A program made the translations under genes and the position numbers. From the NCBI GenBank assembly GCA_034620365.1, contig JAQGEQ010000071.1:2232001-2296000 (forward strand): 64,000 bases of DNA. The letters run 5' to 3'. Source of the DNA: Pegea sp. RAD2-039. Taxonomy: Eukaryota > Chordata > Thaliacea > Salpida > Salpidae. Below, one piece after another: positions 18,761 through 54,067 of this stretch (position 1 is its first letter; each line of letters opens with the position of its first letter). The notes under the pieces are model-generated. The model saw nothing but the letters and a program-made list of their open reading frames with translations. It was not told where the DNA came from and ran no database searches.

Positions 18761-20662
18761 ATGGCTAATATAAGAGATAGGCAGATATCTGCAATTAACA
18801 GTATGTTGAACTTGGGTAAGATGGTTACTTCAAAAAGCTCTATGGAGCCTGAGTGGAAATTGCTGGTATATGATCAAGTTGGCCAAGATATTATCTCACC
18901 ATTACTATCTGTAGCTGAGTTAAGAAATCTTGGTGTTACACTTTATCTACCATTGAATGGAGAAAGAGATCCAGTTAATGATGTATCTGCAGTATATTTT
19001 GTTGCCCCTAATGATCAAAACATCTCTAGAATTTGTCGTGATATGAAAGAAAATTTATATGATAGCTATTACTTTAATTTCATTTCTGCAATTCCAAGAA
19101 ATAAGTTAGAAGATTTAGCAAGTGCTGCTATAGAAGCAAATGCTGAAGCTAAAGTGAACAAAATCTTTGATCAGTATGTCGATTTCATAACTTTAGAAAA
19201 AGATATGTTTGTTTTAAATGGTTGTAACAAACAAGTCCAATCTTACTACAACTTGAATAAAACTGATTTGAAAGACTATGAGTTGCTATCTATAGTTGAC
19301 AATGTTGTTAATTGTCTTTATTGTGTATTTGTGACCATGGGAAGTATCCCAATTATTCATTGTCCCCCTGGTAATGTTGCTGAGATGATAGCTGAAAAAC
19401 TTGATAAAAGACTGAGAGAAAATCTTCGTGACACAAGAAATAGTTTTTTTACTTCAATTCCAAGTCTTCCAAATGAGGTTGGAACTCAGTTAATGTCTTT
19501 TCAACGTCCCTTGTTGCTAGTTGTTGACAGAAATATTGATCTAGCAACACCTCTTCATCATACTTGGACATATCAAGCATTAGTTCATGATGTTCTTAAT
19601 CTCAACTTGAATAGTGTTGTAATACCTGAAACTGTTGTTGAAGCTGGTGATGGAAATGTTCGAAAAAAACCTCAAAAAGCGTTTAATCTAGGACCATCCA
19701 ATACATTTTGGCAAACACATAAGGGTGAACCTTTTCCAGAAGTTGCTGAAGCTGTTCAAAAAGAAATAGAAGAATATAAGAATCATGAAGAAGAAGTACA
19801 ACGTTTAAAAACTACCATGGGCTTGGAAGGTTCAGATGGACCTGTAGATATATCAGACAACACAGCAAAACTGACATCTGCTATGAGTTCATTACCAGAA
19901 CTGTTGGAAAAGAAACGACAAATTGATATGCACACAACAATTGCAACTTCAATTCTTACTTGTATCAAGCAACGAAAATTAGACGAATTCTTTGAACTAG
20001 AGGAAAAAATAATGAGTAAAGTTGCCTCAGATAAAAGTGTTTTAGAGTTTTTAGGTGATTCTAGTATCACTAATAATCGGGATAAGTTAAGATTGTTTCT
20101 TTTGCATTATATTTGTAGTGCTTCAATCAATGATGCTGATCTCGATCAATTTCTCAATGTTTTAAAACAAGCAGAGTGCAACACCTCAGCTTTTTCATAT
20201 ATCAAACGTTGGAAGCAATTCACATCTTCATTAGCTTCTCCTGTTCAATCTAGAGGAGGTGGAGGTACTAAAACTATCGGGATGTTTTCTCATTTAATGA
20301 GTACAGGCTCGCAATTCGTTATGGAGGGTGTAAAAAATCTTGTTATTAAAAAACATAATTTGCCAATAACTAAAGTTCTTGATCAGCTGATGGAGATCAA
20401 ACCTGGTGTTGAGACTGAAAAATATCGATATTTTGATCCAAAACTTGCAAAAATGTCTGAAACATCTGCTAGAAAAACCAAAGTGTCATATTCGAATGCT
20501 ATTGTTTTTGTTGTTGGTGGTGGTAATTATATTGAATACCAAAACTTAAATGAATATGTGAAGGGGAAACCTGGCAAGCAGGTAACTTATGGTTGTATGG
20601 AACTACTTAATGCTGAAGACTTTCTAGACCAATTAAACTTGCTAGGTAAAGAACTACAATAG
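18761..20662 (+). CDS. SCFD1: SCFD1 / Sly1, Sec1-Munc18 family protein
   Basis: SM protein that binds syntaxin-5/18-type SNAREs and drives ER-Golgi and intra-Golgi membrane fusion. The frame is open for 633 aa, close to animal Sly1 (about 640), and aligns end to end: N-terminal IRDRQ, then YDQVGQDIISPLLSV, DPVNDVSAVYFVAP, the highly conserved VDRNIDLATPLHHTWTYQAL, LSDNTAKLTS-like DISDNTAKLT, LPELLEKKR, GSQFVMEGVKNLV and C-terminal VVGGGNYIEYQNL. I chose ATG at 18,761 over an upstream in-frame one at 18,686 because a tttttatag acceptor lies between them and homology begins here. The whole coding region is a single exon, unlike vertebrate SCFD1 with its many introns. Confidence 0.95.
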   Translation: MANIRDRQISAINSMLNLGKMVTSKSSMEPEWKLLVYDQVGQDIISPLLSVAELRNLGVTLYLPLNGERDPVNDVSAVYFVAPNDQNISRICRDMKENLYDSYYFNFISAIPRNKLEDLASAAIEANAEAKVNKIFDQYVDFITLEKDMFVLNGCNKQVQSYYNLNKTDLKDYELLSIVDNVVNCLYCVFVTMGSIPIIHCPPGNVAEMIAEKLDKRLRENLRDTRNSFFTSIPSLPNEVGTQLMSFQRPLLLVVDRNIDLATPLHHTWTYQALVHDVLNLNLNSVVIPETVVEAGDGNVRKKPQKAFNLGPSNTFWQTHKGEPFPEVAEAVQKEIEEYKNHEEEVQRLKTTMGLEGSDGPVDISDNTAKLTSAMSSLPELLEKKRQIDMHTTIATSILTCIKQRKLDEFFELEEKIMSKVASDKSVLEFLGDSSITNNRDKLRLFLLHYICSASINDADLDQFLNVLKQAECNTSAFSYIKRWKQFTSSLASPVQSRGGGGTKTIGMFSHLMSTGSQFVMEGVKNLVIKKHNLPITKVLDQLMEIKPGVETEKYRYFDPKLAKMSETSARKTKVSYSNAIVFVVGGGNYIEYQNLNEYVKGKPGKQVTYGCMELLNAEDFLDQLNLLGKELQ

Positions 20663-24437: not shown

Positions 24438-26137
24438 ATGAGCAGCCAACAAAGGTGAATTATAAATATTTTTTAATTTTGTAGAAAATTTAACAACAAT
24501 TTTCAACATTATTATATTGAAATAACAAAACTAAAATTTCAAATATTAAAACAAATATTATTTTAACAAAAATCTCAACTAACTTTTATTACAGTAATCC
24601 TCAACTGCGTTTTCCTAACAATGAGATCTTTAAAGTGGGAGTAATTGCAACTGGAGGTGGGATTCTTTTCGGATATGATCTCGGAATCATTTCAGGAGCA
24701 TTAATTCAACTGAAAGTTTTTTTTTCACTCACATGCCTTCAGATTGAGTTAGTTGTTGCTTCAGCACTCTTTGGTGCTTTGTTAGGCTCTTTAGCTGGAG
24801 GATTTATCATCGATTGTATAGGAAGACGACTGAGTTATCTGATGTCTTCAGCTATATTTCTCATTTCAGCGATCATTCTCATATTTACTCCATCTTATTC
24901 AGTTTTAATCTTAGGTCGCTTCTTAGTAGGTTTTGGAGTAGCTTTAGCTTCTGCATCTGAATGTATTTATGTTTCTGAACTTTCACCTACAAACATTAGA
25001 GGTAGTTTAGTTTCATTAAATGAAGTTGGAATCGCGACTGGTTTTCTGGTTGCATATGCAGCTAATGCTTCTTTCTCAGTTATCAAGGACAATGGTTGGC
25101 GATATATGTTTGGTTTACCTTCATTGTTTTCAATAATAACCATCATGACCGCAGCCAGACTACCAGAAAGTCCCAGATTTCTGATAATGAGTCGGCGTTT
25201 TATTCAAGCTCGAAAAGCTTTGACAAAAGTTCGTCGTAGTCAGACTGACGCTGAAAAGTCAGCTGTAGAGCAAGAGTTCCTCGCCATGAACTTTATTGAT
25301 GATGAAGTCACTACTCCAAGTACTACGTGTGGTCGCATCAAACATTTTTTCACTCCTTCCCTTATCATAGGAAGTGGTTTAGTGTTTTTCCAGCAAGCTA
25401 TAGGTGCCCCTAACCTAATGTTCTACGCATCAACAATTTTTCAATCATTGGGTTTTGGTGATGAGACAAGCGCTGATTTAGGTGCAGTTGGCCTTGGCGT
25501 GGTGAAAGTGCTTACCACTGTATTCTGTTTGTTGATAATTGATAAGTATCGGCGGAAGTCGTTTCTTCTGGTCGGCACCATCACCATGCTCATTTCACTT
25601 TTCACATTATCAATTATTTCTACTTATTTTACCTTCATTCCATCTGATATCTGCCAAGACAATTTCACATCTTTAAACACTTCATCAATAAATATCACTT
25701 CTTCTGTTCATCATCTAACTTATCCTGTTGGTCTTAAGATGGCTTCCTTTATTTCTTTGATGGTTTTTGTCTCAGCATACGCATTTAGTTTTGGTCCTCT
25801 AACTTGGATCGTTCTTAGTGAGATATTTTCTGCTAGATACAGAGGCAGGTATTTCTCGGTGGTAATCGCTATGAATTGGATTTGGAATTTGATCATATCA
25901 TCAACTTTTTTAACTTTTGTCAAATCAACAAATGGTTTGATGGTCTCTCTGATTATGTATGGATCAATTGCTATTCTTGCTACCTTCTTTATTTTATATT
26001 TCATTCCTGAAACTAGAGGAAAAACTTTAGAAGAAATTGATGCTTTAATGACCACATGGCGTGGCAATTTTAGCCCAGAATTAATAAGTTGTTGTCAAAA
26101 AGAACCAGATTCGTTGTCACTTCCACTTATGAGTTAA
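24438..26137 (+). CDS. SLC2A10/12-like facilitative sugar transporter
   Basis: Major-facilitator hexose carrier of the plasma or internal membranes. Exons 24,438-24,454 and 24,595-26,137 give 519 aa; the tiny first exon (MSSQQ plus two bases) is chosen because its phase joins the AAT-CCT frame at the acceptor tttattacag. Twelve membrane segments can be traced. Family motifs are present: GGGILFGYDLGIISGAL, DCIGRR, GRFLVGFGVA, YVSELSP-NIRG, LPESPRFLI, FFQQAIGAPNLMFYAS, IDKYRRKS, GPLTWIVLSEIF, and PETRGKTLEEID. The long extracellular loop between segments 9 and 10, with NFTS, NTSS and NITS glycosylation sites, and the QQ-G-PN-MFYAS wording point to class III (GLUT10/12). Assignment to one of these is not possible by eye. 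Confidence 0.9.
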
Positions 26138-28361: not shown

Positions 28362-31300
28362 TCAATCTTTTTTCAAAAGTAAAGTTTCCAATAAGCTTAG
28401 AGGTTCTCGAGATTGTTCAACATCAGAAGAACTGTTTACAGAAGAAAGAGCAGAGATAAGCGATTGTGAGGTTAAAGGAGATGTTGTTACAGATGCAGTA
28501 TACTGAGAGGACGAGACCTCAATTGAACTACTTAAACCATTGTTATTATTTCGGTTGGCATTATTGATAAGATCCGAACAGGGGTTTATCTGCTGGATGT
28601 TATTACAAGTGATAAACGTTTGATCTTCATCTGGATATTTTCTTCCTATGGTCGCCACACTTCCAGGACCTTGTATTGAAGACATCATTATTTGGTTTTG
28701 ATTCAGATGATTATTGAGATGTGTATTGTTGTTGGTTGGAAGCTAAACAAAGATCAAAAGTTACAATTTGATCAAGTAGTATTTAATTAAAGTTAAAAAT
28801 AGTTGATTATTTACTTATATTTCACCTTGTTATCATATGTATCTACCCAGTTGTTAACTTGATACGTGTTTATATCTGAGTTTACTTGATGCACACCAAG
28901 CTTTATAAAAAAGTTGGAATTGACTTTTAGATTTTCAATTTTATTTCTACCATAAATTCTATTATTTAAGTTTTGGTTTAAAATCGTTTTAATTTTGAGT
29001 AAAACTAAATTATTTAAAACTGAAAAATTTTCGTTTCAATATTATTTTATCAAAAAGTTTTTGAAAGAAATAAAATTGTTGAAAAAAGTTGTGAATCTTT
29101 AAACAGATTTCTCGCATGCAAAAAACTTAAATAAAATTCTTTCTATTTTCAGTATGTTGCAAATAATATCTGTTTTAAAGCAGCTACCTGTTCACAAAGT
29201 TTTGTTTGAGATTGAGGATAAACTTGTGAGTTGATTGTTGGATTATTTTGTAACGTATTTCCAGGTATTAGTGTTGATGAAACCATTCGAGGAGTTTGGA
29301 TAATGGGTGCCTGTGAACTGACCGGCTTCTGTATCATTTGGTTGCTTACATCATTATTACACCAAGAATTGTCTTGAATGTAGTTGGTAGTGACACACGA
29401 AGGTTGATTGGTCAGATGTGAAACTGGTTTGTGACCATTTATACGTGGTATAGGTGAGAATAATTGAGGTTGATAACAAGCTGGTTGATTTTGTGTGAAT
29501 GTTTTCCATCCAATACCTGAACTTGTAGTGTCTGCCAATGAATTGATGGTTTTCTTTTTCTTTCTGGTGTTTCTAATTCGTTCTTTTGCTCGTTTATTTG
29601 GAGATGTAGTATAAGCAAAGTTATCTGAAAAAAATGTTAAATTTTTCTACTTTTAAATAAAAATAATTAAAAACCTTGATTCACTGGTAGACAATTGTTA
29701 GGAAGTTTTTGTACCATTGGTAGTTGACTGTAGGACAATTGTGGTGTCCCTGAGTTTATAATTTAAACAGTTTTTAAATAAGATGAAACAATAAAAAAAC
29801 GTTGATAGGTGTAAGAAGAATCAGTTATCATCTTCATCTGACCTTTTTTAATCCTAAATAAATCATTTTAGTAAAAACAGATGTAAAATTTAAACATGAA
29901 ATTAAACTGTCAACAAGTTTACTTAAAACATGACGAAATTTGATGAGTGATTTTCATCACTTCAAAACAACAATTCAATTTTCATTTATATTCTTCAACT
30001 TTTTGTCAGTTTGTATATTTTAATGACTAAAACAAATTTCAAAACATCACTAACATGCCTCTAATTTGCTGATTTCAAATTTTAACGACAGATAGGATAT
30101 GAGGATATTAAAATCAGTTAATTGGAAATCTTCCAAGACGGCTTTTGTTGTTACATTTAATGTGACAAAATTTGAAACTTTCAAATTTGTTTTTTTCTTC
30201 AATTCAATCAACAATCATTTTAAAGAAAACAAAAAATTCTCTATTTTAATATTTCTAAATATCAGTAATTAAAGATTTTTTTACAAAAATATAAATAATA
30301 AACAAATATAATTTTGTTGCTGAAAGGGAAAATGCAGAAAATAAAGAAAAAAATTCATTAAAAAAACTTTTAATGAATAAATTTCAGATGTTTTTCAAAT
30401 GATGGTTTCACAAATTTTCTAAGAAAGCAAATATTAGGTAATTATTCATTAATTACAAGTTGATATGATCATTAATTACCTGTAAATTGTACAGAATTAT
30501 TCTGGTTGTTAATTCTATGAGTTGAAATAAACCTTTGTTGGTGCTTTTGTATGATATGCTTTCCGTCAGGTAATCTAACAATAAAGAATAATTGATAATG
30601 AAACAATAAATGAATTCAAATTTCAAACTGAATTTAAAAAGAAGTTTTATTAAACCTCTTCTCTCATAGATTCCTCTTTTTAACAAACCCAGGTTTGCAG
30701 ATAAAAATTTTAGATTTATAAAATTTTAATATTCACAAAAACAAATCAAAAATTCTAAAAAATTTCAACATAACTTCCTCACCTTAATCTGTGTCCATAT
30801 GTTTGTGGTGAAATGGGGTTGTTAGATGAATAAGGCTGAGAAAATCTTGTTGGACTACTACCCATAAAAGGTCTTTGATTAATTGGATGTTGGTTTATAT
30901 TCGGCCTTAAATTTTGGTCTATATCATTACGCCAAGGTTGAGGTTGATTAAGACGAATCTGAAGCTGTGTAGAGAGCATATAATTTATATTTTCATTTAA
31001 TTATATTTCAATTTTGTAATTAACAAACTACAAAATTCAAACTCACAAAAAAATTTTCTTAAAAACTTAAAAATATTTATTCAAGAAAAGTTCTTAATTG
31101 TTTTGATTAAAAAATATTTTATGAAAATTATGTAGAGATCTAAATATCTGAAATAAATAAAGATTTTTTTATTTACTTCAATTAAGTTAGAGGAAAAATG
31201 TGTGACATATGAAGTTTGTAAAAAGTCAACATCTTTCAAATATTTTCAGTTTTTATCTTTTAGTAAAAAATATTCCAAAAGTTGATCAAACTGACTTCTT

Positions 31301-34300
31301 GCGATTTCAAAATATGTTTTTATAAAAGTTTAAAAACCAAAAAAATATTTTTGTGAAATTTCATATGAAGTGAAACAAACCTGATATCGGGCATGGTTGT
31401 TGTTGGTACACGAGTTGCCAGAGGTCGGAGGCTACAAATAAAAGCAAATTTTACTGACAGCTAACCAACAGAAACCAAATTATTGTTATTCAGAAATTTG
31501 GAAGAAAATATTTGGAAGATATTAGCTTACTACAATGTAGGTAACATTCTGATTGATTCGAGGTACTTTTGGTTTAGTTTCACGAAAGTTTGAAACCATT
31601 TTCGGCTAAAAAGATTACACAAAAATTCATTTAAGAATTTAGAATCGATTTGGTGATGAAGAAAGATCACCTGATTGATGTAGTTGTTGATGTGCTGAGG
31701 ATTCATCTGAGGATGATGGAGATTATTCGCTAAAAGATGAAGAAAATAAAAATTGTCCAATCAGATTCGAGAACTAGTTACCAGGAAGACATGTTGAATT
31801 GTTGCTAGGATACGGAATTGTCATCCGAGGATTGATCCCTGCGGGAGGTGGGACTGCTCCCAGATCAATAAGAGGTTCCTGACCTTCACATCGCTCTAAA
31901 TCCAATCCAAAGAGACCAGAGATACGATTGATCTGAGATTCAGGATGCAAGAGACTTCCGTTTTGAGGAGAATGAGAAAGTTGAGTGCTGACAGCTCCAT
32001 TGGTGTTCACTACCATATTTGGACATCCGTTGACGTCAGACGACAAGATCTTGTTGCCAGGATTTTGTTTCAGTGGATTGAAGATGATATTGTGGTTGGT
32101 TGGTTTGGAGGCTGACTGAATTTGAAGTTTCTTCGCGTCTGTTTGCGAACAAAAGTGATCACGTGATTAGAGAGATCAGTAAGAAGTTACCTAGATCAGG
32201 ACGTTGGACTTGATGTGGAGAACTAAAGCTGGATGGTCCGTTCTGCTGATGAAAGAAATCCCAGTTTTTTGATGCTTCTCATAAAAATTGAAACAAACCA
32301 TTTGATGAAGAATCGGGATGAAGTCTTGAGAAGAACCAAGAGGTGGATCTTGCTGATCAGTATCCTCCGCATCAATAAAGTCTCCCAAAATCTCATTGAG
32401 TTCATCTAATTCTTCCTTACTCAAATCACCAGCTCCAAAATTCGATTGGAGATTAACTCCTTGTTGATCTGTATTACTAAAGGAGCTGAACGGAGGACTT
32501 TTTGGCTCAGATGCTAGGATTTGATCCTGAGGTTTATCTTCTTCAGTTTTAAACTTGCCGATCTTGCTAAACATATGCTCCTTAATCAAGTCTTCCGATG
32601 ATCTTTTCTCTGGGGATGTGATCTGTTTGGAGAGCTTTTCATGCTTTACATCCAGATGATCAACTGATGAACTTAAACTAGAAATATCACCACTAGGGGG
32701 AGTATTATCGGAGGAGCAAATAGGATGAGATGGAAGAGAGGTTAGGGGTCCTTGAAGACTGGAAGAAGAGAGAAATGATGAGGAAGAAGGATGTCTTTGG
32801 CGATCTAGGGAGACTGGAGAGAGCAGAAGATCACTATTAAGGAGATTGGGTTTGTTGAAACTATCTGAAAATGTTCTTTTGATTCTGTCTTCTTGGGACA
32901 CATCAATCTCTGAAAGATCAACGCACGGAGGACCAGGATAAGTAGCAGGATTGTTTAAATGTGTGTCTTCCATTAAACAGCTTTCTGTCAAATACAAAAA
33001 GTGAAAAAAAATTATTTTCAAAGAAGTTGCTACAAACCGTCGGAAGACAACTTGCTGCAGTAAGAAGAGAAATTTGAAGTAGATGAGATGATCGGATCAC
33101 AATTATTCAACTGGATGTTGCTCCCAATTGAGTGAACCAAGTATCCGTCTAGATGAGGTGGAGGCGAGAGAACTGAGTTTACAATCTCCTGAGTTGAGAT
33201 CATTAAGAAATATGTGATGAAGATGACACAATGACTTACTTCTGTGTCAACATCGGCTCCGGTGCTGATCAGAAGTTCTTTGACGACTTTGGCACTATTT
33301 TGTTGGCGCAGAAATGAATTCGACCAATTTCGATGGCTTTTAATGGGAAAATTGTTCCGCTGCTGTACAAAACTAGATTAGAAAAAATTCTCCAAAATGT
33401 TATCAGAATTTTTGACAATATTCAACTATTTAAGAGCAAATCTTTGCTTTAAAACCAACAAATTGTCAGAACCTTTTCAGTAAAATATTTTATTTTCACT
33501 GAATTTTTACAAAAGTTTAAAAACAAGAGTTTGAAGTAACTCGCTTGAGAGATAACTTTCAAATGAAATTTCAAAAAATTCAATTTTTAAACAAAATTTT
33601 TGAAGATAAAAATGAAGTTACTTTTGGTAGAGATGTAGGGTGGACTGTTTTAGATTTGATTGGAGGTATTTCAGATAAGAACTTTACTGGTGATGGAGAA
33701 CAGCTCTTTAGAAGTTCAAAATCATCTAGTTTTTCAAGACCATATTCTATAAAAAATTGATGAAATTAAACAAAATTAAAAAGTTAAATTTCATAACTAA
33801 GAAATTAATCAAAATAATTAGCAAATTAAGTTGTTTATTCTTTGCTAATATTTAGTTATTTTCAACCAGATATACTTATTAATAGATAAACTTTTAAAAG
33901 TTCAAATTTGCAAAGCTGTAAATAACAAAAATAGAAAATTTTATGTTTAATTCTTTTATGACATCAACTTATGAAGTGATGCAATGATAAACAATGTCAT
34001 AAATAAATAGAAGCTTATTACTACTTTTATATTTAATCAAAACTAATTTGTTTATCTTAAAACAAAGTTTTGATAGTTACAAAATATATATTTATCTTAT
34101 TGCTACTGTAATAGCTAAATATTGTTAAATTAAGATTATTTCGCTTGGTTAATGTTACAAACAAATTACTTTTGATTAGAAGCTCAAATATACTTACCTA
34201 AATTATTTGACCTTGTTCTATTTGGTAAGCTGTTTAAATCAAAATGATTCAAAGCTCCATCTCTAGCAAAAAGTAGATTCAAATTTCAGTTCAGTTATAT

Positions 34301-37300
34301 ATAGCGAGTTAAATATATACCGCTCAAGTAAATTTATAAAAATAATTTTAAAATACTGTTTGGTATTTTCTAAATTCAGATTTACAATTTTTATTAGTCT
34401 AGAAATTTGTTAAAGAAAAACAACTAGTTATTAATTGAACAATTTAAATGCAAAATACAAAAGATGTTTTCTTCTAAGAACTGAAAAATTTAAATTCTTT
34501 ACTTTCTGGCTTTTGTAACTAAAACAGAACTGAAATAATAACACTATCTGTTCGTGAAAGCTTGATTTAATAGTGGAATAACTTTACCTGCTTACTTCTA
34601 TAGCTTGTCACTTGCAAACAGCACGCATACTAACTGACGTAATTTCCGTTTTGTCATTTATATTAACTAAAAAATTAGAAAAGTTGTAAAGAAAAACGTG
34701 ATCATAAATCAAGGGTTAAAAATGGTCTAGAAAATTGACTTCTAAAGATGCAATTGATCCCTGATTAGATGTAGTAAACCTCCTTATTAGGATTACCCAG
34801 TGACATTTAAGTAGGGGATTAAGGAAACAATTTAGTTGTTTAACTGGAATCTAGTTCATTCATAAAATTGTTACTACTATAGGATATCCTTTGTTTACTT
34901 TTAATTTTTACATTAGAAGCTTATAAACAAAGTTGATCTACAATTAAAGTGGTTTGAATGATTCTAAGTTTAACTTGCAGTTGCTTAATTTAATCAATTA
35001 AATGTACCAAAAAATAAATAAAAACAAAGTATCTTTATGAGAAATATTTTCTTGCTTAAAATGTAATCTAGTATTAGAAAAATCAAATAGCTGACATAAT
35101 TCAAATAAAAAAATATTTTTATAAATAAAGAATATGGATTTGTAGAAGACAAAATAAAGTTAATCGTGATAAATAATTGAATTGTGAAGTTGCCAAGTAT
35201 CTATAAAGAAAAAAGTTTTAAAATAAATGCTATCAATGTAAAAAATAGAAATTTATATCGATATGGTAACACGTCACTATAAACAACTTTTTCAAAAGAC
35301 ACATGCAGCTATTTGTAGAGAATGTGAAAGAATAGGTTTTGAAACATCAGTTTTTATGTTTCGAAACAACATATATTTGCGAAAAAATGTTTAAACTGAT
35401 AACATCGATATTTTAATTTACATATTGGTTTTTATGAATAATAAATTACTAATAAATGTAAAAGTGACTACTTAAATTAATTTAATCGGTTTTATGCTAT
35501 TACAGCTGTTTTTGTATTTATTAATCACTGATAAGTTGTGATTATAACCTTCTATATGTTTAGCTTGCATGTCAAAGTTCTCACAAAAACAAGATTTTGT
35601 TTATTAATTTTAAATATAAACAAACAAATAAAAACACGTAATTAAAACTGCAACCAAATAATGGTAGATTATTTATGATATTCAAAATCTAGTGAAGCAA
35701 TTAATGTTTATTATTATTTCACAAACTTTAAACAAAACCTGCAAACTTATTTCACAAAGTTAAAAACAATTTTCTTGAAAGTAATATTACGACATCAGGT
35801 TTTAAACAATCGTAATTTAGCAAAATAATTGAATTTCAGAAAGAAAAAATTCCTCGTAAATTTCGTCAACCGCAAAATAGTTTTGATAGTTATACGAGGT
35901 ATGCAGGGTAGTTTAGTTATCTGTAAATATGAATACTATCCACCAGTAATACTGGAAAAAGAGGATTGGTGGAAACAGTAGAAATTCTAACATGACAAAT
36001 CGCAAAGCTTTTTGATTTGAGTTTTTAGTTGGTATGATCGAAATAATAAGTTTTGATTTTTTTTAGATTAAAAGTAAAAAGGTGACTTAATAACTATTAG
36101 TCGAATAGTAACCATCACAATAAACAAGAAAATTAATAAAAATTCCATGAAAAAGTCAACTTTTCATTTTAATCACTTACTTGTAGATGTGATGAACTGA
36201 AACTACGAATGGTGGTTCCTGCTTCTGGACATTTGCAACAAACTTACTTTTTGTAAATGCAGTAACCGACATACCATCAGATAATTGGAACTTAAACTGA
36301 CAACTTTTTGCTTCACCTTGACTAACAACTGCAACAAAGTTGAAAGTTTGAAAAGTGATATATAATTCAATTCTTTCATCTCTATTATTTTATTTGTAGA
36401 TTTATTGTTTTCAAATCTTTTTTCGTTGATATTATAAATTTTTATTTAACAAAATGTTTAATTTTTTAATTCTTGACGAATTAGATATTTGGTTAAAACA
36501 TAAATATTGGATAAATAGTTTTTATCTACAAATATTTATATCAAAAATTAATCTATTTAATTGTTATTGAAAATTATTTCTTTAATCATTTTAAAAATAA
36601 ACAGCTTTAATAAGAAGCTTTTAGACAAAAATAATTTTAGATACAGAAAAATTGTAAGCTATTTTGAAAATCTAAAAATAATTTTAGAATGAAATGCATG
36701 GCATCAGAAATCTGGCTTATAACTTCCTTAAAGTTTTTATAAAATAATAAGCTGCTAATACAAACGAAATATATCAATTCATACTATCAAATATAAGTTT
36801 AATGAATATATAAATTATCAGCCAACTAAATTTTGAGATTAACATTTCTTAAACGAATTTTTAGCTGGAAAAACCAACTTTTGATGTCAATTTATTAAAC
36901 CACTAAAATCTAGTGGTTTAAATACCCATAGATAATAAAAACACTTAAAACTAATCTTTCGCACATAAAAGTAAAATTAAAATAGTTGATAGAATTTCTT
37001 AAGAAATTGTAAAAACCTTTGGTATGTAGAGTTTGTGCAAGTGAAGAACCATTGGTTGAAGATTTTGTAAAAGCTTTTAGGTATCTTTCAATCATGTCTT
37101 CTTTACATGGCAACATCTGCTTATCATAAACCAGAGTCATCTTTCCTTTTAATAAAAGTTTATTTATTTGTCTTATTGAAATTGTTGAGAAAAAATTTGA
37201 TAAAACAAAATGTTGTGACTCATTTTCTAATAATTTTATTTTTGAAACATTTGCAAATAAGCAGCTTTCTAGATGCACTAATGAAAACTAACTTTGACTA

Positions 37301-40300
37301 ATGGGTCAAATTACAAAAAAAATTATATTAGATGAGAAACTGTAAAAATTGAACTATAGCTAAGGCACAAAATTTACAAAATAAAGTAATTAAAAACCTG
37401 AAAGTAATCGGAGAATAGATTTCTGCTTAATTTTTTCAGATTTATTTAGGAACTTATTTACAGTAGTTTTAAAGCTTTTTTTTAAACTCTGAATTTGTTG
37501 AATTATAAATAGTTTTGATGAAAATAAACTGAGTAAAAGAAGTCTTCTGAAGAAGAATAAGAGATTATATTGAAGAATGCAAAATTGTCAACATCTTATC
37601 GTATGAAGACATTTATTATAAGTCTGAAATAAACGAAAACATCTATGGAACAAAATTGAAATATTCTGCTCGTCTCAAACTTAATTACTAACTTTGATTG
37701 TTCAGTTACATACAACTCCAGAAAATTAGATCGCTTTATAAGCTTAAAAAACTCCTGGGTCAGTAACAAAAAGAAACCAAAAAGTTGTAGATGGTTAAAG
37801 TCACTTAAAAAGAACTACACAAAGAAGTAAGTAGTTGATGATGTTAAAAAACATTCTGAATATTTAATACGTAAAACTTCTGGTATTCTGTGAGGTAGAA
37901 AACATTGTTTGGACTTTTAATTTATTGAAAAAGTTACCCAGAATTTCATATTTGTTGTTAGCACCAACAACATTTGTGATTCAAAACAAATAGATGTCAA
38001 TAAAGGTGAAGTGAAAGAAAAAGTTCAAGATGTAAATGTTATAAATTGAAATTAGGAGGTTGTAAGACATCAGCAGCTACTGATACTAGTCTGCTTTTGA
38101 AGATGATAATAATTTTGATGACTTGATAAGGTGAGTATTGATTTTTAAATTATAATTTGACAAAAAGTTTCTTTATAAGCACTACTAGCAAGTATTTTGT
38201 AAGACAGATGAAAATTAAACTTTCATTTGGATTGATGTGGCAGTTAATAACACAAGTAGAAAAGAATTGAACAACAAATTATCGGATCAAAGACTTCATT
38301 CCAATTTTACTTGACAGTATAATTGATCAAAAAATTAAATAAATTTGTAAAATTGAAATCAGCAAAATGATTTATAAAAGAATTGAATTGAAAAGCAGAT
38401 AACTGAAAATGAAATTTTTATTTGAAAATGATTTATTTCAACTTTTTAGAAACTTAAAAATTATTTCAACTGAAACTACAAAGATATCAACAAATGGTTG
38501 CAATCTAGTTCAAGTAATTTCCACATTTTCCTTTCTCAAAAATATCAAATTCAAATCAATTTCTTATAAGCTTTTCACTAGGCTCTTTCAATTGTAGGAA
38601 GCTTAAACGATTAAAAAGTTTACAAAAAATTTCCTCGACAAAAACAGCTTACACTGAAAACAAAACTCTGGAAATAGTTAAAGTCTCAAGAAAGTTGGGA
38701 ATATTTTCAATTATAAAAATATCTGATAATAATTTCTAATAATTGTCAACCTAATCGCTGCCAAAAGTGTTTAAAGTAAAATTACGATAAAAATTTGGAG
38801 ATCTTAACCTGATATTGTCTGGTGCGTCATAAATGTTTCAGGCTCGGGTATTTTGCCTCTTGTATTGATGGTTTGATTCGGAGGTCCTTTTAGATCTTCT
38901 GAAGTTTCGTTACAAAGATTTGAAGCTTTGGAAGGTGATATCAGAGATAAAAACAAATCTGTAAATAATATAGTTTAGCAGGTTAGTTGACTTAGTGGAA
39001 ATAAAAAACTTTGAATTAAATTCAATTCTTATCAAATAAACAATTTGGCTTTTTCTGCTTTTCAATTATTTGATTTAATTTATTTTCAAATTCAGCTTTT
39101 GGATTTGATAAACTTTTGGTAATTTCAAGAAAAAAGGTTAAATACAAATCTTAAAAATACCATTTTGATTAGAAGACGTCGAACTGTGAAGTATTCCTAC
39201 ACAATCCATAAAATTCGATTCTTTTACTACTTCATCGTCAGTTTGATTGAAATGAAAAAAGATCGGTTTAGAAGATTTGGAGCTTTCTGTAGAAGAAAAA
39301 GTGAAAAAAAGGATTTAATTAAAGAAAAAAAGCTAGTAACAAGTTCCTAGTTTAAAGATATTTCAAGAAATTGATTAATAAATAACTAAATGTAGAAAAT
39401 AAAATCAATAAAATTTGATGGTTTAAAATTTTCTTGTTTCTTAGTCGAAATCGGAGTAAAAATAAGTTGCAACTTCATTCATTAGACTTATTTTTGGTTT
39501 TCACCAGGATTTTGCCATTTTTAATCAGAATAAATAGAATTGTGGAAGTAGTGAATATAATCAATCTAAGATTCTAAATTTCTTCCAAATACTTCTTCAG
39601 ATATTACAATGATTGAATTTGATTTATTCTTCAAGTAAATAATAAAAAGTTTTTCAATTGAAATATCCGAAAGTGTAAATTATTTATAAGAATAAGAAGA
39701 ACATTTAACGACTTTTATCTGAAACTCGTTCTATTAAAATAATCAAATAGACGTTTTGAATTATGAAAGTTTGCTAATATCTTATTGAACTATAAATTGA
39801 AATTTTCAGGACATATCTAATCAATTTAAAGACTTGTTTATAAAAAAAAGGAAAATTTACCAACTATAGGTAATTCAATTAACTAATTTCTATATTTTAA
39901 CTATAATTTGATTTATTCTAAAAAATACTAAAGAAAGAATTCAGTTTTAACTAACACACAAATTTATCCAAGTTTTTATTAGTAGGAAAATAGAAGGGTG
40001 ATTACTGGTCTATTTTTAAGCAAGTTTACAATTTATCATGGAAAATTATTCATTTCAAAAATCCTACAAACAATAAATATGGAAAGAAAATGAATCTTAA
40101 AAAGTTTTTATTTATCTTATTAGTAACTCAACGTTCAGCTTTGTAAGAAGAAAGACTTAGAAGGTAAACCTGTAATTAACTTAAGTTCATTCTTATAGCA
40201 TATCATATATAAAAGGAATTCAATTTGAAGAGTTACAAATAACATTGTATTTAGAAATGAACAATTTTATTTAATCAAAACTAATAAAAGGATGAAATTT

Positions 40301-43300
40301 AGTAAAACCTGATTTGTGGGAATTGGTTAGCTTCTTCATCTGCTCATCATTAAAACTTGGAAGAACTTTATTCAGTTTCATGCCAATAATATTTTGCTGT
40401 TTAAAAACCCAACATTTAAATATAAAATTGATGACAAGTATTTTTATATATCTAATGACAGTTGATTTAATTAAAATATCGCCACCATGAGGAGTAAAAC
40501 ATTTAAAAGCTCAAGCTAAGTAGCTAAAAAGATTATTTAAACGCTTAGGAAGATTTTACTGATTGTGAAAATTAAGTTAAACTAAAAATGTTTATCATCG
40601 GTTTAAAAAAATTAGTTTTACTGATTTCATAAATTACATCGAGATAAAAAAGCAAATTGTATTTATAAAAATGAGCTTCTATCTGTAAATGCAGTTTTAG
40701 AAAATGTTTAAAGTAATCTAACGCTTTTAGGATATAAATCAAAGAATCGATTCTTGAATTGAATTTAGTTTGGAAGGTGAATATTTGATTTGTAATATAA
40801 ACTTATAAAGTTATGTTTAAACTTAAAAGTTTGTAAAGTTGATAGAAGAAATCTTTTATTGACAATATAAAAGTGAAATCACCTGATTTATTCCAAGAAA
40901 GTTAGTGATATTTTCAGAAGCATGGATACAAGAATCATCAAGTAAATTAGTGACCAATAAGAAGCAGTTCAATTTCTAGTCCAACGAAAGAAATATTTAT
41001 TTAAATTTAGGATTATTAAGGCAAAGAAAAACTTCATCAACTTTGAAAGTTTAAATTAAAAAAAGAAAATAAACGAAAAAAGTCCATCTTAGAACATTTA
41101 ATGAACTATTTATTAGATTTCAAATTTCTAATATTAAATTTTTTAAGTAAAAATTGATTTAATTTTATCTGATAGTTTATATAAGATGATGTAGGTATTT
41201 AGAAAACGAAAAATTATTTTAGAAAAAGTTTGCAACAAATTTTTTTTGTTGAGTAGATTACAACATCAATTCCAATTCAAAATCAAACTTTCTGATATCT
41301 ACTTACCGAGAAAATTGTGTTTAATTTTTCTTCATCTTCTCCATCTTCTATAAATGTAATTATTTTTACAAATCTTTAGATCAAACTTTATAATAAACGT
41401 CGTTTTTTATCTTTATCAGTTTAAATTCAAATTTATAGAATTATACTTGGTAACCAATAAATATTTATGAACAAAAAACTTCCAGATATTAGGAAAGTAA
41501 TAAACCAACTTATTCATATATTATTTTTGGCTACTTATTTATATCATTTCAAAATGCAAGTTTAAATGTTTCATTCTGATAAAAAATAATCAATTTCAGC
41601 TTGCAAAATTATAAATATCATTTTTTAAACCAATTAGCCAATAAAACTAATTGAATGCTTAAAAATTGTATGCGATGTCTATAGACTAGCAACATTTTAT
41701 GAACTCAACTTATTGCAGTTACTTAAGAAGCGGCAAGTGTCTGCAAAATAACTTATTTAACGCTATACATACCTGATATTGAAAGACGAACTTCAAAAAA
41801 GCTTTTGATTTCTTTGAAAAAGTTCTGACAAGTCTGAAACGATTTTGAATATTTATAAAGTTTCAAATTTAAATTATTAAAACTAATCAATTTATCACCT
41901 AGAATAAGTAAAACTTTTCCTTGATTAATTGCTTAACAAGATGGTTGTTATTGTCTAAAGAAAGGTGTTTTTAAACACCGATTAGTCTTATTTGTATGAA
42001 ATCTCTCATGTATAGTTGAAATAAATTGTTTTCGTTTTACACTATCTCTATACAAACAATTTACAACTGCTAAAATTTATTTTCCAGCCTAATGTTTGTT
42101 TTATAAGACTAAAAACATTGCCACCAGAATACTAAACATAGAATTAGTCAAATCAAGTAAAAATTATTTTTTGATGTCTTAGTGTTGTTTCCAACCAAAT
42201 ATAGCGTTGCAAAAGAGAACAAGCAAAACTTTTTACAACAGAAAAACTAGAAAAAAATGTTTTCAAGTAATCTATTCGTCATTAATGTTTTCTGTTGTGG
42301 CTTCTTGTACAAACAAATGCTCCTCGTCAACATCTATTTCAGGATTTTTATTCCTTCTAATAAAATCATACAGAAGAAGATTTAGAAATGTTAGAATCAT
42401 GTTTTATCTAAATCAAAAGATTCTGTTTCTAAAAGAGTCGCGTTTAAATAAATTAGAGATGGATTCTGATAAATATGATGTACTGATCAAATATTTATTT
42501 CATCATCTACTTAACTACAAAATAAGTCTTTTAAAATGTAGATGCCAACAGTTTAAAAAAATAATATGAAACCTTTTTGTTTATATAAAGATCAAATTAA
42601 AATAGCGATTAAAAAGAAATCAGAATAAAATCCATTAATTTTTTCCAAGTTTTTTTTGGGGGATTTTCACAAATACGTTTTAATAGATAGTTACTCAAAA
42701 CTTTTAATAATAACAAAATTAATTTGTTTAATATTTGTAATTATTTGTTATCTAACTTAAAAGTGTGAAAAACTTTGTAAACAGTCTTTTCATTTTTCTG
42801 AAAACTGTTTAAAGTTCCCTTTAAATACTATCTGTTTAATTCTTCTGTCATTTTGCAAACAAAAATTAAAATAGAAATACAACTGTCAAAAAACCATCAA
42901 CAAAATTTTCAGCTTTCTTAGAAACAATTCTTGAATTTAAGTGGGATAATTAGCTTTATACCAAAGATTTCCAACGTGCTATTTAGGAAATCAAACTTTT
43001 GAACAGTTATATGCTGAAATAAAAACTAAATCAAGTTGAGATTGCAGATTAACTAAAAGTTAAGGAAAACGCAACCAAAAAAATGTAACCACATTTCAAT
43101 AGACAGATAAGTAACCTTTCTCAACAATACTCTTAAGCAAATCTGGCATATTTAAAAAATTCAACTTCACTACTAAAAAGTAAAGTAATTAAAAGCGGTT
43201 GTTTCCAAAGGTTGTGAAAAATAATATTTTTAACAAAGTTAACTCAAATCTAAAGTATTACGTGTAATTTAGAACAACCACAAAACAACAAACATAAATT

Positions 43301-44595
43301 AACCTGTTTGCAAATCTCATAATTTTTTTTCTCAAAAATTCAAAAAGATTCTTTTAAACATATTTTAAGCAAGAAAATTGTAAATGGTTAAATCGAAAAT
43401 AATTTCAAAATTTATTAATAATTACAGAGAAAATCAATTCTTAATCCGTGGTAAACAAAACTAAATTGCAACTAATCATCAGAAGAGAACTTACCACAAT
43501 TAGAAATATTACAACTTTATAATATGTTCTTTAATTTTATAATAAAAAAACACAAACATCAAATTAATTCTTCATTTTAATGACTCAGCAAAATCTGTAT
43601 CTGAGTTATTTAGTAACAATAAAAAGGATTACGCAACAAAAGTAGGTCCAAGCAAATTTACCAAATTAGTAGATGCAAACATTATTGTTAGTTTTGTAAA
43701 AGTTATAAAAGTTGGTCAAGTGGCTTGAAGAATGTCTGTATTGAAGTGTAATAGGTTTATGTGAATAATATCAAAAGATGGCAAAAGTACTAAAAGAAAA
43801 CGTTTGTTTAGATGAAGATGGTATTATTGGTGCATTTTTGATTTAAATCAAAGACTTCTGTGTAATAATATATTCTTTGAATAATATACAAAGAAAATAA
43901 ATAAATAAACTTGATACTTTTTCCAAGAGCTTTGCTACTTATAAATTTCGATATTATGACGATTGACAAACTTCAAATAAAGTTTATAATCAAAAAAATT
44001 TCAATTTAGGAAAACTCCAGCTCTTGTGAGCAATGAAATGAAAACTTCATTAAGAAACAAATGAAACCAATTTAAGCATAAACATGCTTTTTTAGTTAGT
44101 TTACAAATAAATTGGATCAAAATGTAATTGAAGAAGATATAAATAAATATTTATAAACTATAAATCTATTATGAAATATTTGTAGTTTTAGTTGCAAAAT
44201 ATTAAATAATCAATTTGTGAATTGTTATCAATGATAAACATCAAACTAAAAATCTCTTTAACTTTTATAATAACAAAAGGAAATTTGCTACAATCCAATC
44301 CAATTTAAAGCAATCAATTTTAAGATGTATAAATTCTTTGTATACTTTATATTGTAAGTTTTCAAACTGTTTTATTGATTTTAAGGATAAATAGTTAATA
44401 ATTAACGATGTTTTATAACAACAAAAACTGATAATAAATGCTTTTTTAACTACTATTCAAAACTAACTTAAGAAAATCTACTATAGTACTCACGCTAATA
44501 TTTTCTTCTTTTGAATTTAAGCTTTTTATGGAAGAAAACTTTTTCAAATATTCGATATCTTTCCTGTTGTTATTGATTGTTAGTCTTGTATCCAT
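28362..44595 (-). CDS. NCOA: p160 nuclear receptor coactivator (NCOA/SRC/Taiman family)
   Basis: bHLH-PAS transcriptional coactivator recruited by nuclear receptors through LxxLL motifs. Exons 5' to 3': 44595-44494, 41833-41773, 41347-41307, 40975-40883, 40396-40309, 39286-39161, 38958-38809, 37145-37017, 36328-36181, 34262-34198, 33746-33622, 33362-33240, 33188-33038, 32984-32299, 32245-32191, 32138-31782, 31729-31671, 31605-31531, 31431-31381, 30964-30783, 30574-30533, 29727-29675, 29624-29188, 28900-28826, 28742-28362. Every junction is GT-AG with matching phase; total 3855 nt, 1284 aa. PAS-A: LNCFLLVTNLLDD, SENITNFLGINQ. PAS-B: EPETFMTHQTISGKM, EDMIERYLKAF, FQLSDGMSVTAFTKSKFV. Then KVVKELL, EELDELNEILGD, LQIRLNQPQPW, and a C-terminal LETLL. 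Human members are about 1420-1460 aa. The bHLH (exons 1-2) is short and degenerate. Confidence 0.87.
37400..38800. other. long intron of the p160 gene, possible old insertion
   Basis: Most of the 1.66-kb intron between the exons at 38,809 and 37,145. Slightly less AT-rich than other introns at 37,500-38,100, which may be the remains of an inserted element, but no protein family could be read on either strand. Confidence 0.3.
42000..44490. other. first intron of the p160 gene (part)
   Basis: The 2.66-kb intron between the exons at 44,494 and 41,833. A + strand frame at 42,207-42,569 has no family similarity and low-complexity composition, so I leave it uncalled. No clear extra exon could be fitted in phase. 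Confidence 0.4.
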
Positions 44596-49903: not shown

Positions 49904-52900
49904 ATGTTGCTTCAGATTGCTTTTATTTTGCTGATGATAAATCATTCTATGAGTACAAGTGTCTGCGGAGTTGATAAAATTTATAGGTTTGTTCAATTCT
50001 TGTTGTCCTATAACTTTTAATTATTAATTATTAGAAATTTGTTGTACAAATATTGTCTTGTCAATAAAATTGATGAGAAATTATTTTGTTATTTGCTTGT
50101 ACTTTTTCAACTTCCTAAAAGACATGCCCATTGACCAATTCATTCCATCTTAGAAGATTTTTCTTAGAACTTTTTTATTCTATTCCCTGAATCAAATAAG
50201 TAAAGCTCTTCTAGCTAAGACTACTTGTTTCTCAAATGTGATGCAGGATGTCTTCTCCTTGTCAACAGTGAAACACCAAATCACATAAATGATACCTTAG
50301 ATCCAAGTATTATGAAGAAAGAGATCAAACCATCTATCATCAAGACATAACTTAAGGTTTCGTGAAGTTTGTTTTACTCCTAAGTACAGAAGAAGGATTC
50401 TTGCCCATGTAGTAAGGTTCATTCTCTTCGCCAACAAGGCGAACCTTCCAGCAGAACAGACGGACTGATCCAGCTGCACCTAGTTGGCGTCACAGGAGCT
50501 GGCAGAATGCCACTGAGTATAATGATGAACTGCCTACGAGGCTCCGACTCCAGCTTTAATTTCAGAGTTTGCGTCTCTTTCAAGTGTTACCTTTAATGAA
50601 CTTTTTCTTGTCACAAATATGTGTCCGCCAGGACTGGAACCCGAGATCCTTCGCTTGTCAAGCTACAGAGTTTACTGATCCTACATTAATGTGATTTCCA
50701 AAAGTTAATGTCAAGAAAATACTTAGTCTATTTTTCTATAAAAGTTTTAGCTGTTCTAAGTTTTTTAATTACATTTTTTGGATTATTTTATAGGATAGAT
50801 TGTTTTCCTGAAATTTCACCTGGAATTGAAAAGGCTTGTGCTGATAGAGGCTGCTGTTATGATGCAAATAATCACCTTGCTACTGATGGCTCTCCCTGGT
50901 GTTTTTATCCATCAAATTATAGTTCATATGAAGTTACAGCCTTAAAAGTACAGTATTTTACTAATTGATTTTACTTCAAAATTAACTTATGAAAATCTGA
51001 TTATCAACAGAAAACAAGTTATGGTTTACGCGGAATATTACAAATGACAGAAACTCATCAATTAAGGATTGAAAATGAGATTCCCTTGTTGACGCTTGAT
51101 GTTTATTTTGAAACTTCAAGTCGTTTGCGTTTTTCGATCACAAATTCACAAAAATCTCGTTTTGAAGTTCCAATAGAAACTCCAAAGATAAACAAAGCTG
51201 CTGAAGATTTGTTGTATTCTGTAGATTGTGTTAAAGAGAGATTTGGAATTGTAATTCGAAATAAAAACTCTGGTAGAGCTGTGTTTGATTCTACTATTGG
51301 GCCATTATTGTATGCAGACCAATTTTTACAAGTGAGATTTTAATCTGAATCAAATATCAACAAATTGCTGAGTATTTTTATCTTTATATATTTATGTTTT
51401 TTTGCTGAGATGTTTTTATATTATTTGTAACCAAAAGTCGAATTTTTTATACTTTTCTTTTAGATATCAAGCTATCTTTCAAGCAACAAGTTATATGGTG
51501 TGGGAGAAAGACACAGTGATTCGCTTCTTGATCTAAACTGGAACCGATTGGTGTTTTGGGCTAGAGACCAGTTACCAATGGTTGGTTCTAACTTGTATGG
51601 TAACCATCCTTTTTTGTTGGGTATCGAAGATGATGGTTCTAGTTTTGGAATCTTTTTTCTGAATAGTAATGCTCTGGAAGTTCTTCTTCAACCTTCACCA
51701 GCAGTTACTTGGAGAACTATTGGAGGTTTGAAAAAAATATTTAAAAAAACAAAATTTTTAGAGTCAAATATATTTCAGGAATTTTGGACTTTTATGTCTT
51801 TATCGGTAATTCTCCTGAAGACGTAGTTCAACAATATGTCCAGATCATTGGTAAACCTTATCTTCCTCCTTATTGGGGATTAGGATTCCATATTTGTCGT
51901 TGGGGTTATACAAGCGCTAATGATACTTGGAATTATGTGAACCAAACCAGAAATGCATTAATACCGCAGGTTTAAAAAGTTTTTGAGTTAAAAATTCATC
52001 TATTAGATTATATTTGTAGTAAGTCATTGTCATGTTTAGCCTTAAATATTTAAAATTAAGAAAATAAGTTCTTATATAAGCTTTACTTGTTTGAATTTCT
52101 TAAGCTCTATCTCTTTCGACGAAAATAAGTTTCATTCTAAATTAAAAAAAGAATTCAAAGTGAAAAAAACTGAAAGCTTCAAAAATTTATTGTGACTTTC
52201 AACTGAATTAATTTATAAAAAAAGAATATTTTGAACAATATATTTCTTCCTCTTTCTTATCTGTATTGTTTTGTATCCATTAAGTTATTTTAGCTTCATC
52301 TAAATTAATTATATTTTATGAAATATTTAATTACATTAGAACAATAGTCTAAAATTAGTTTTTACTAAAAAATGGCCTTCTGTCTTGATGTTGAATTAAA
52401 CGTATTTTGAAGCATCTGAGTTATTAATTAAGAAAACTTTGATTGTTTGATAGGATGTTCAATGGAATGATCTCGATTATACCTCAAACTATCTTGATTT
52501 CACTTACAACAACAAAACTTTTTCTAACCTTCCAAACATGATACAAAATATACATGCTAATGGTCAGAAGTACATTATGATTGTGGACCCTGGAATTTCT
52601 AATCAGCAACAACCAGGGACATACCCTCCTTATGATGAAGGGTTAGTGTCTGGAATATTTGTGAGTCAACCAAATTCCAGCAAACCAATTGAAGGCAAGG
52701 TTTGGCCGGGAAAAACTGTTTTTCCTGATTTTTTTAACCCAAAAACAATAAACTATTGGAAAGATCAACTAAGAGCTTATCATAACAAGATACCATTTGA
52801 TGGGGCGTGGATTGATATGAATGAACCCTCAAACTTTGTCACTGGATCAACGACAGATTGCCCGAATAATAATCTGGAGAACCCACCGTATGTCCCCAAA

Positions 52901-54067
52901 GTAACTGGCTCTAAACTGAGTGACAAAACCTTGTGTATGTCTGCTCGTCATCATAACTACTCACATTACGACGTTCACAATTTATATGGTTTGTTTGAAA
53001 TGAAAGCTACGTATAAAGCGCTGGTGGAAATTCGTAACAAAAGACCTTTTATAATATCAAGATCTTCATACCCTAGTACTGGTCATTATGGAGGTCACTG
53101 GACAGGTGATATCAGTAGCACGTGGACTGATTTGAAACAATCAATTGTCGGCATCACAAACTTCAATTTGTTTGGAATTCCTCTAGTTGGAGCAGATATT
53201 TGTGGTTTCGGCGGCTCGACTACTGAAGAGCTTTGCATCAGATGGACACAACTAGGAGCTTTTTATCCATTTAGTCGCAACCACAATACCATTGGAGCCC
53301 GAGGACAAGGTCCTGTTGACTTTTCAAATGCAACTCAATCTATTATGAGAAAGGTTTTGTCAGAACGCTACAAGTTTCTTCCTTATCTTTACACATTATT
53401 TTATCGTGCTCATGTTAACGGTACAACTGTGGCAAGAGGTCTTTATTTTGAGTTCCCAACTGACAGATGGTCACTTGTTAATGATGAGCAGTTTTTATGG
53501 GGACATGCTTTGATGATAACACCAGTTCTCGTTGAAAAGGCGACTTCTACCATCGGTTATTTTCCACCAGGCGTTTGGTTTGATATTTATCATGACTTTG
53601 GTTATGCTATAAACAGCATTAATTATTTCAGAAACTTATATGCTCCTTTAGAGTTGATTCCACTGCATATTCGTGGAGGTTATATAATCCCAGCTCAGTT
53701 TCCTGCTCTAAACACTGTTAAAAGTAGAAAAAATCCTTTTATACTTTACGTTGCTTTGAACTCATCACAGCAAGCATCTGGTGAATTATATTGGGATGAT
53801 GGAGACAGTTTAAACAGCATTGAAAATGAAGAATATGTTTTAATTCACTTTATAGCCGATGATAATTGCTTAAGAAATCAAATTATTCACAAGGACTCTC
53901 AATTTACTATCAACTTGAGTAAAGTTTATGTTTTTGGTTTGCAGTATACACCAAGCCAAGTTACTAACAATGGTGAAAATATTCAGTTTCAAATCTTACC
54001 TAATAATGTCTTAGAAATTTCTTCATCCATGTTTTTACAAAATGAATTTTGTATTAAGTGGAATTAG
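49904..54067 (+). CDS. secreted GH31 alpha-glucosidase with trefoil domain (GAA/maltase-like)
   Basis: Hydrolyses terminal alpha-1,4 glucose units. Exons 49,904-49,986, 50,794-50,947, 51,011-51,331, 51,464-51,725, 51,779-51,969 and 52,454-54,067; all phases join; 874 aa. A signal peptide (MLLQIAFILLMINHSMS) leads into a P-type trefoil domain (RIDCFPE, CADRGCCYD, PWCFYPSN). The GH31 N-domain follows (LYGVGER, the YW-LGFH-CRWGY block), then the catalytic barrel with nucleophile Asp458 in WIDMNEPSNF and acid/base Asp556 in GGHWTGDISSTW, and LVGADICGFGG. No transmembrane anchor is seen, so it is lysosomal (GAA-like) or secreted digestive; length is nearer one GAA or one maltase half (about 900). 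The first intron holds a SINE; the last exon carries over half of the protein without interruption. Confidence 0.95.
50285..50690 (-). mobile_element. tRNA-derived SINE, copy B, in alpha-glucosidase intron 1
   Basis: Read on the minus strand, the tRNA-like head is at about 50,690-50,600 (CGGGTTCCAGTCC, GGCGGACACATATTTG), and the body at 50,560-50,390 (GGTGCAGCTGGATCAG, CTGTTCTGCTG, CTACATGGGCAAG). Block order equals that of copy A at 17.3 kb; similarity by eye is roughly two thirds, so the copies are old. It is inserted antisense to the host gene. Confidence 0.75.
51970..52453. other. alpha-glucosidase intron 5
   Basis: 484 bp, AT-rich, no repeat or coding signal seen. Confidence 0.7.

Follow-up and report, generated by a model that had tools for sequence, protein, structure and literature searches.

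The window analysed here, a 64,000-nucleotide (nt) stretch of contig JAQGEQ010000071.1 (positions 2,232,001 to 2,296,000), carries on its minus strand a spliced gene of the p160 coactivator line. The p160 coactivators are described as basic helix-loop-helix (bHLH)-PAS proteins with three central LxxLL motifs. We consider it fairly probable that this is a p160-line gene of the tunicate group, with 25 exons, whose product has PAS-A and PAS-B domains but no recognisable bHLH and likely contacts receptors through a single LxxLL encoded by the last exon. By similarity the gene would descend from p160 genes, and its protein appears to be a p160-lineage variant rather than a canonical bHLH-PAS p160, because the canonical bHLH and the three-LxxLL region were both looked for and not found.

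The window belongs to an assembly of 387 contigs (105,744,746 bases), and its G+C content ranges from 19.8 to 35.0% in 2-kb steps. The gene model was built from stop-to-stop frames and an exon-chaining script, and then from P0001, a protein of a JGI relative found by database search. It runs from an ATG at 44595 to a stop codon ending at 28362, with consistent phases and 3924 nt of coding sequence including the stop (1307 amino acids); all 24 introns, of 50 to 2660 nt, have GT-AG borders. An earlier note on this DNA had proposed 25 phase-consistent exons at these coordinates, which stand, and a total of 3855 nt, which the rebuilt model replaces; its statement that most exons are shorter than 150 nt agrees with the count (18 of 25). 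P0001 fixed exon 1 and its donor (GTGAGT) and supplied exon 2, which has a low-ranking coding score and had not been picked by the exon-chaining script. A first automatic model, starting at 43149 with exons that were too long, was rejected, as was a reading of exon 1 to the end of its open frame as a helix-loop-helix, since P0001 shows the second 'helix' to be intron. NAGNAG acceptors lie at 33359 (exon 12) and 32242 (exon 15) on the minus strand, and at each of them P0001 agrees with use of the downstream AG.

Independent support for the exons comes from P0001 and from two tunicate homologues. P0001 is a protein of 1198 amino acids encoded by an intron-free frame on a 4209-nt contig; it starts at the same methionine as exon 1 and is identical to exons 1–24 at 1020 of 1184 aligned residues (86%). 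The alignment is gap-free within about 6 residues at 21 of the 24 exon junctions, while a small indel lies near junctions 15/16 and 22/23 and P0001 ends at 24/25. Since its long frame runs unbroken across introns 1–23 on so short a contig, we infer that P0001 derives from spliced RNA or cDNA. Exon 25 resembles the C-termini of the Ciona and Phallusia homologues (z scores of 7.7 and 7.5 over shuffles, respectively). Because P0001 matches exons 1–24 and the two homologues match exon 25, the 25-exon gene is, judged from sequence, real and beyond chance.

Both PAS domains are present, PAS-A followed by PAS-B, with PAS-A the weaker of the two in Pfam. The model scored 33.4 bits for PAS_11 (cut-off 25), 23.7 for PAS_2 (cut-off 21.4) and 13.5, below cut-off, for PAS, which was just above its cut-off in P0001 (23.0 versus 22.6 bits); a Folliculin_C score of 16.4 bits against a cut-off of 27 was taken as chance. 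For the N-terminal part of the model alone, the best PDB match was NCOA1 PAS-B (E 2e-7), followed by HIF-2 alpha, whose likeness lay mostly in PAS-A. When P0001, Ciona and Phallusia were combined into a profile that excludes the window protein (an earlier profile that included fish NCOA2 was not independent), NCOA1 PAS-B came first with 67 bits and HIF-2 alpha next with 37 bits over the PAS-A part; the best stretches of HIF, BMAL1, AHR and CLOCK lay before PAS-B and scored lower, and ARNT gave no match at E up to 1 in this search of the PDB. In the predicted structure of P0001, for which the alignment also included fish NCOA2, PAS-B alone is confident, with a predicted local distance difference test (pLDDT) score of 69–92 in 10-residue blocks against a whole-protein mean of 35.5. 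Foldseek ranked four NCOA1 PAS-B chains at the top for this fold (best E 2e-9, TMt 0.85). PAS-B is thus nearest to NCOA among bHLH-PAS families in sequence and in predicted fold, and it did not find its best match within the HIF, BMAL1, AHR or CLOCK families. Because NCOA1 PAS-B leads by both approaches, the PAS core appears to be of p160 type, and a HIF, ARNT or CLOCK identity was rejected on the profile search. The proposal of the earlier note, a single spliced p160 (NCOA/SRC) gene and not ARNT or CLOCK, is accordingly borne out by similarity. A PF00989 profile search of the organism's own genome returned 0 PAS matches, likely because exons were searched apart.

A bHLH could not be detected by any of three approaches. 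Pfam bHLH_NCOA had no match in the model, P0001, Ciona or Phallusia, while the fish NCOA2 control scored 126.5 bits. A tblastn search of the 64-kb window with the fish bHLH found no bHLH exon (best E 0.63); in the control, whole fish NCOA2 found the PAS-B exon at 1e-5 as its sole match at E up to 0.01. The N-terminal 58–60 residues gave z scores of -0.67 to 0.04 against the fish bHLH, compared with 7.3 for PAS-A and 26.6 for PAS-B as controls, and the tunicate N-termini show weak likeness to each other (z 1.8–3.0 between lineages). P0001, Ciona and Phallusia likewise begin without a bHLH. Directly before the ATG (44596, minus strand) lies an in-frame TAG that is also an AG acceptor-like site. 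This AG would fit spliced-leader trans-splicing, which occurs in tunicates.

The later part of the protein also departs from the vertebrate pattern. Among five proteins scanned, the Pfam SRC-1 nuclear receptor box, AD1, NCOA_u2 and DUF4927 matched fish NCOA2 only, and the central three-LxxLL receptor-interaction region (Pfam SRC-1) was not found in the model. The earlier note was therefore right about PAS-A and PAS-B in order but not about the later p160 blocks; those conserved in the model are the ones common to Ciona and Phallusia. It had also overlooked that neither the bHLH nor the three-LxxLL region is detectable by Pfam and LxxLL count. A literature search covering abstracts and sections of PMC4066832 and PMC1828162 found no paper stating such an absence in a tunicate p160; the Satou 2003 Ciona survey lay outside its scope. 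AD1 (Pfam Nuc_rec_co-act) had neither a Pfam match nor a PDB sequence match in the model; the PDB sequence search gave four unrelated matches (E 0.1–0.46), which were rejected. A helix in exon 14, KEELDELNEILGDF, bears a weak likeness to fish AD1 (z 2.2; 1.4 in Ciona and 4.1 in Phallusia).

The only LxxLL of the model lies at residue 1299 of 1307, within the last nine residues. The counterpart in Ciona is at residue 1348 of 1357, with 2 others in the protein, and that in Phallusia at 1567 of 1577, with 3 others; fish NCOA2 has three, at 660–773 of 1441, and P0001 has none. The C-terminal motif is therefore present in all three proteins that have this C-terminus (the model, Ciona and Phallusia). 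Shuffled models contained on average 0.83 LxxLL each; of 5000 shuffles, 0.7% had a motif among the final 12 residues. Since the only LxxLL sits in exon 25, leaving out this exon would likely remove receptor contact. P0001 ends in DNKVKYK; exon 24 ends in DNK, and read-through into intron 24 would add V-K-Y-K and a stop, which makes it likely that the transcript of the relative either terminates within intron 24 or retains it. The evidence for such an isoform is this one sequence, from another species.

From this anatomy we infer how the protein might work. The C-terminal LETLL helix would dock on a liganded receptor at its activation function 2 (AF-2) groove, the PAS domains would bind partner proteins, and the disordered remainder, with its KEELDELNEILGDF helix, might recruit CBP/p300-type acetyltransferases. 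Lacking a bHLH, the protein would reach DNA only through partners. If intron 24 were kept, or the mRNA ended there, a receptor-blind form would result, and splicing of the last intron would set the balance. A bolder version, which we put forward only tentatively, is that tunicates rebuilt p160: the bHLH was lost and the three-motif dock worn away, and in this lineage all canonical receptor contact came to rest on one LxxLL in a skippable exon, with a short intron as the switch to a receptor-blind PAS protein.

The hosts of the closest matches place the gene. The p160 database matches were the JGI relative, Ciona, Phallusia and then five salmonid NCOA2 records, with each search scoring only the roughly 8,000 candidates that had most words in common; Ciona and Phallusia are 33–34% identical to the model across roughly one third of the protein. 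A neighbouring gene for SCFD1 (Sec1 family; 18758–20659, in a plus-strand open frame of 661 codons at 18677..20662) was also compared: among the 120 listed of 1176 matches, its three closest sequences are 73–81% identical, Phallusia, Clavelina and two Ciona species 63–65%, and named non-tunicates 57% or less. A tree of 23 rows groups it with 4 named tunicates and 6 further rows (support 100/100), in a sample of few tunicate lineages. On the p160 matches and on the SCFD1 identities and tree, the genes of the host, which might at a guess be a planktonic thaliacean, group with tunicates. The earlier suggestion of a non-bilaterian or flatworm-like host is thus not upheld, and with it falls the idea of an informative early-branching p160, since a gene from a tunicate says nothing on early animal branching.

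Several observations weigh against our reading of a bHLH-less p160-line protein with one receptor contact, and three other explanations draw on some of them. Pfam did not detect PAS-A in the Ciona and Phallusia homologues, where only PAS_11 passed its cut-off, although their PAS-A stretch still aligns to the p160 model, and PAS-A of P0001 reached a pLDDT of 52–69 at best. It might be supposed that the gene belongs to another bHLH-PAS family (HIF, ARNT, CLOCK or AHR) that lost its bHLH: the best PDB match of the PAS-A part is HIF-2 alpha, and no NCOA PAS-A is among the PDB matches. However, both the sequence and the predicted fold of PAS-B resemble NCOA1, and the closest named proteins are NCOA2-like, and we regard this explanation as hardly credible. 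The N-terminus is less clear-cut. Two helices predicted in P0001 (11–25 and 29–51) have pLDDT values of only 30–48 and are possibly a helix-loop-helix relic, and given the AG before the ATG an upstream coding exon may exist. An ordinary bHLH-PAS p160 would follow if the bHLH exons lay upstream of 44595, where the sequence is very AT-rich and the acceptor-like AG immediately precedes the ATG, and if annotators of the other tunicates had overlooked them as well. Nevertheless, four sequences from three lineages (the model with P0001, Ciona and Phallusia) start without a bHLH, tblastn found no such exon in the 64 kb, and P0001 begins at the same methionine; we judge this explanation unlikely.

The C-terminus invites more doubt. 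A single LxxLL is what chance would give in a protein of this composition; support lies solely in its place and in its being kept in tunicates, and the further motifs of Ciona and Phallusia mean that a single motif is not general in the group. The donor of intron 24 is the third weakest of 24, but this is a weak argument for a switch, because introns 18 and 1 have weaker donors and are spliced according to P0001. The VKYK ending could be unspliced pre-mRNA or mis-assembly. Moreover, KEELDELNEILGDF is only possibly an AD1 relic. An ordinary p160 acting through non-canonical motifs in its middle blocks, with the C-terminal LxxLL as one of several contacts and VKYK as splicing noise, would suit both the conservation of those blocks (ELL..STG, SPPPHLDG, EPxxDLG..NPRM) and the additional LxxLL of Ciona and Phallusia. 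Against it stand the facts that the motif is the sole LxxLL of the model and is kept in each of the three proteins with this C-terminus, and we hold it to be possible but doubtful. The reading of a tunicate p160-line gene without a recognisable bHLH and with a last-exon LxxLL as its likely receptor contact is the one we retain. A chordate line lacking a detectable bHLH, and here carrying a single C-terminal LxxLL, would offer a natural test of the roles of those parts; if the last exon were truly a switch, the sister group of vertebrates would provide a simple system for coactivator isoforms that gate hormone responses.

Exons of the p160-line gene and its last intron (window coordinates)
Feature	Position	Strand	Remarks
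Exon 1	44494..44595	-	N-terminus without detectable bHLH; GTGAGT donor; 31/34 residues identical to P0001
Exon 2	41773..41833	-	15/20 identical to P0001
Exon 3	41307..41347	-	8/14 identical to P0001
Exon 4	40883..40975	-	PAS-A; aligned to P0001
Exon 5	40309..40396	-	PAS-A; aligned to P0001
Exon 6	39161..39286	-	PAS-A; aligned to P0001
Exon 7	38809..38958	-	PAS-A end and PAS-B start; aligned to P0001
Exon 8	37017..37145	-	PAS-B; aligned to P0001
Exon 9	36181..36328	-	PAS-B; 48/49 identical to P0001
Exon 10	34198..34262	-	Aligned to P0001
Exon 11	33622..33746	-	Aligned to P0001
Exon 12	33240..33359	-	ELL..STG block common to Ciona and Phallusia; NAGNAG acceptor
Exon 13	33038..33188	-	Shared block IVNxxLSPPPHLDG (Ciona, Phallusia)
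Exon 14	32299..32984	-	Shared YPGPPC block; helix KEELDELNEILGDF, possible AD1 relic
Exon 15	32191..32242	-	8/17 identical to P0001; NAGNAG acceptor
Exon 16	31782..32138	-	Shared EPxxDLG..PxPxGxNPRM block (Ciona, Phallusia)
Exon 17	31671..31729	-	Aligned to P0001
Exon 18	31531..31605	-	Aligned to P0001
Exon 19	31381..31431	-	Aligned to P0001
Exon 20	30783..30964	-	Aligned to P0001
Exon 21	30480..30574	-	Aligned to P0001
Exon 22	29675..29749	-	Aligned to P0001
Exon 23	29188..29624	-	Aligned to P0001
Exon 24	28826..28900	-	P0001 match ends here, then VKYK and end
Intron 24	28743..28825	-	83 nt; read-through V-K-Y-K-stop; donor third weakest of 24
Exon 25	28362..28742	-	Last exon; C-terminus SLLETLLLKKD with the protein's only LxxLL; stop

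Elsewhere in the window, a sugar transporter (Sugar_tr) frame at 24521..26137 and a glycosyl hydrolase family 31 frame at 52454..54067, both on the plus strand, each run for more than 530 codons without a stop; next to a p160 gene of 25 exons, they suggest that intron density differs sharply between neighbours. A UBR-box (zf-UBR) protein, which we take to be UBR7-like, is encoded by a single 411-codon open frame at 60367..61602 (minus strand). A tandem array at 3311..3871 consists of 33- and 63-base units, with about 17 copies of the former. Two plus-strand open frames (12456..13358 and 55717..56577) contain tandem repeats of 30 and 39 bases that stay in frame (KSEEDLRKEA-like, SDSDDDKTSPDLA-like); towards its end the second frame encodes a hydrophobic stretch resembling a membrane helix. 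An Rfam scan of the window gave 0 matches.

The gene type is not new, as records from Ciona and Phallusia are already public. The NCOA2-like protein of Phallusia mammillata (A0A6F9DLA9) and isoform X3 of Ciona intestinalis LOC100176816 have the same layout as the model: a short N-terminus without a detectable bHLH, a p160-type PAS-B, the middle blocks and a C-terminal SLLE(T/S)LLLxKD. They differ from it in their 2 (Ciona) and 3 (Phallusia) further LxxLL. Vertebrate NCOA1/2/3 (SRC-1/2/3), represented here by salmonid NCOA2, share the order of PAS-A and PAS-B, the PAS-B fold and a long C-terminal part; however, the model showed no match to bHLH_NCOA, the three-LxxLL SRC-1 region, AD1 or the other Pfam blocks that fish NCOA2 also has. 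SRC-1a ends in an extra LxxLL, a point left unconfirmed by the literature searched, PMC13026340 included. The proposed switch resembles the SRC-1a and SRC-1e forms of NCOA1 in relying on alternative C-termini. According to PMC13199265, these arise by splicing, SRC-1e lacking the last 56 residues and having 14 of its own, and they differ in their effects on receptors; p160 LxxLL motifs dock on liganded receptors, and SRC-1 has three such motifs in its centre. The SRC-1 end is therefore not the sole receptor contact, unlike that proposed here. Insect Taiman is likewise an invertebrate p160 for which C-terminal isoforms matter, but the cockroach protein has a bHLH together with PAS-A, PAS-B and seven LxxLL motifs, as described in PMC4214675.

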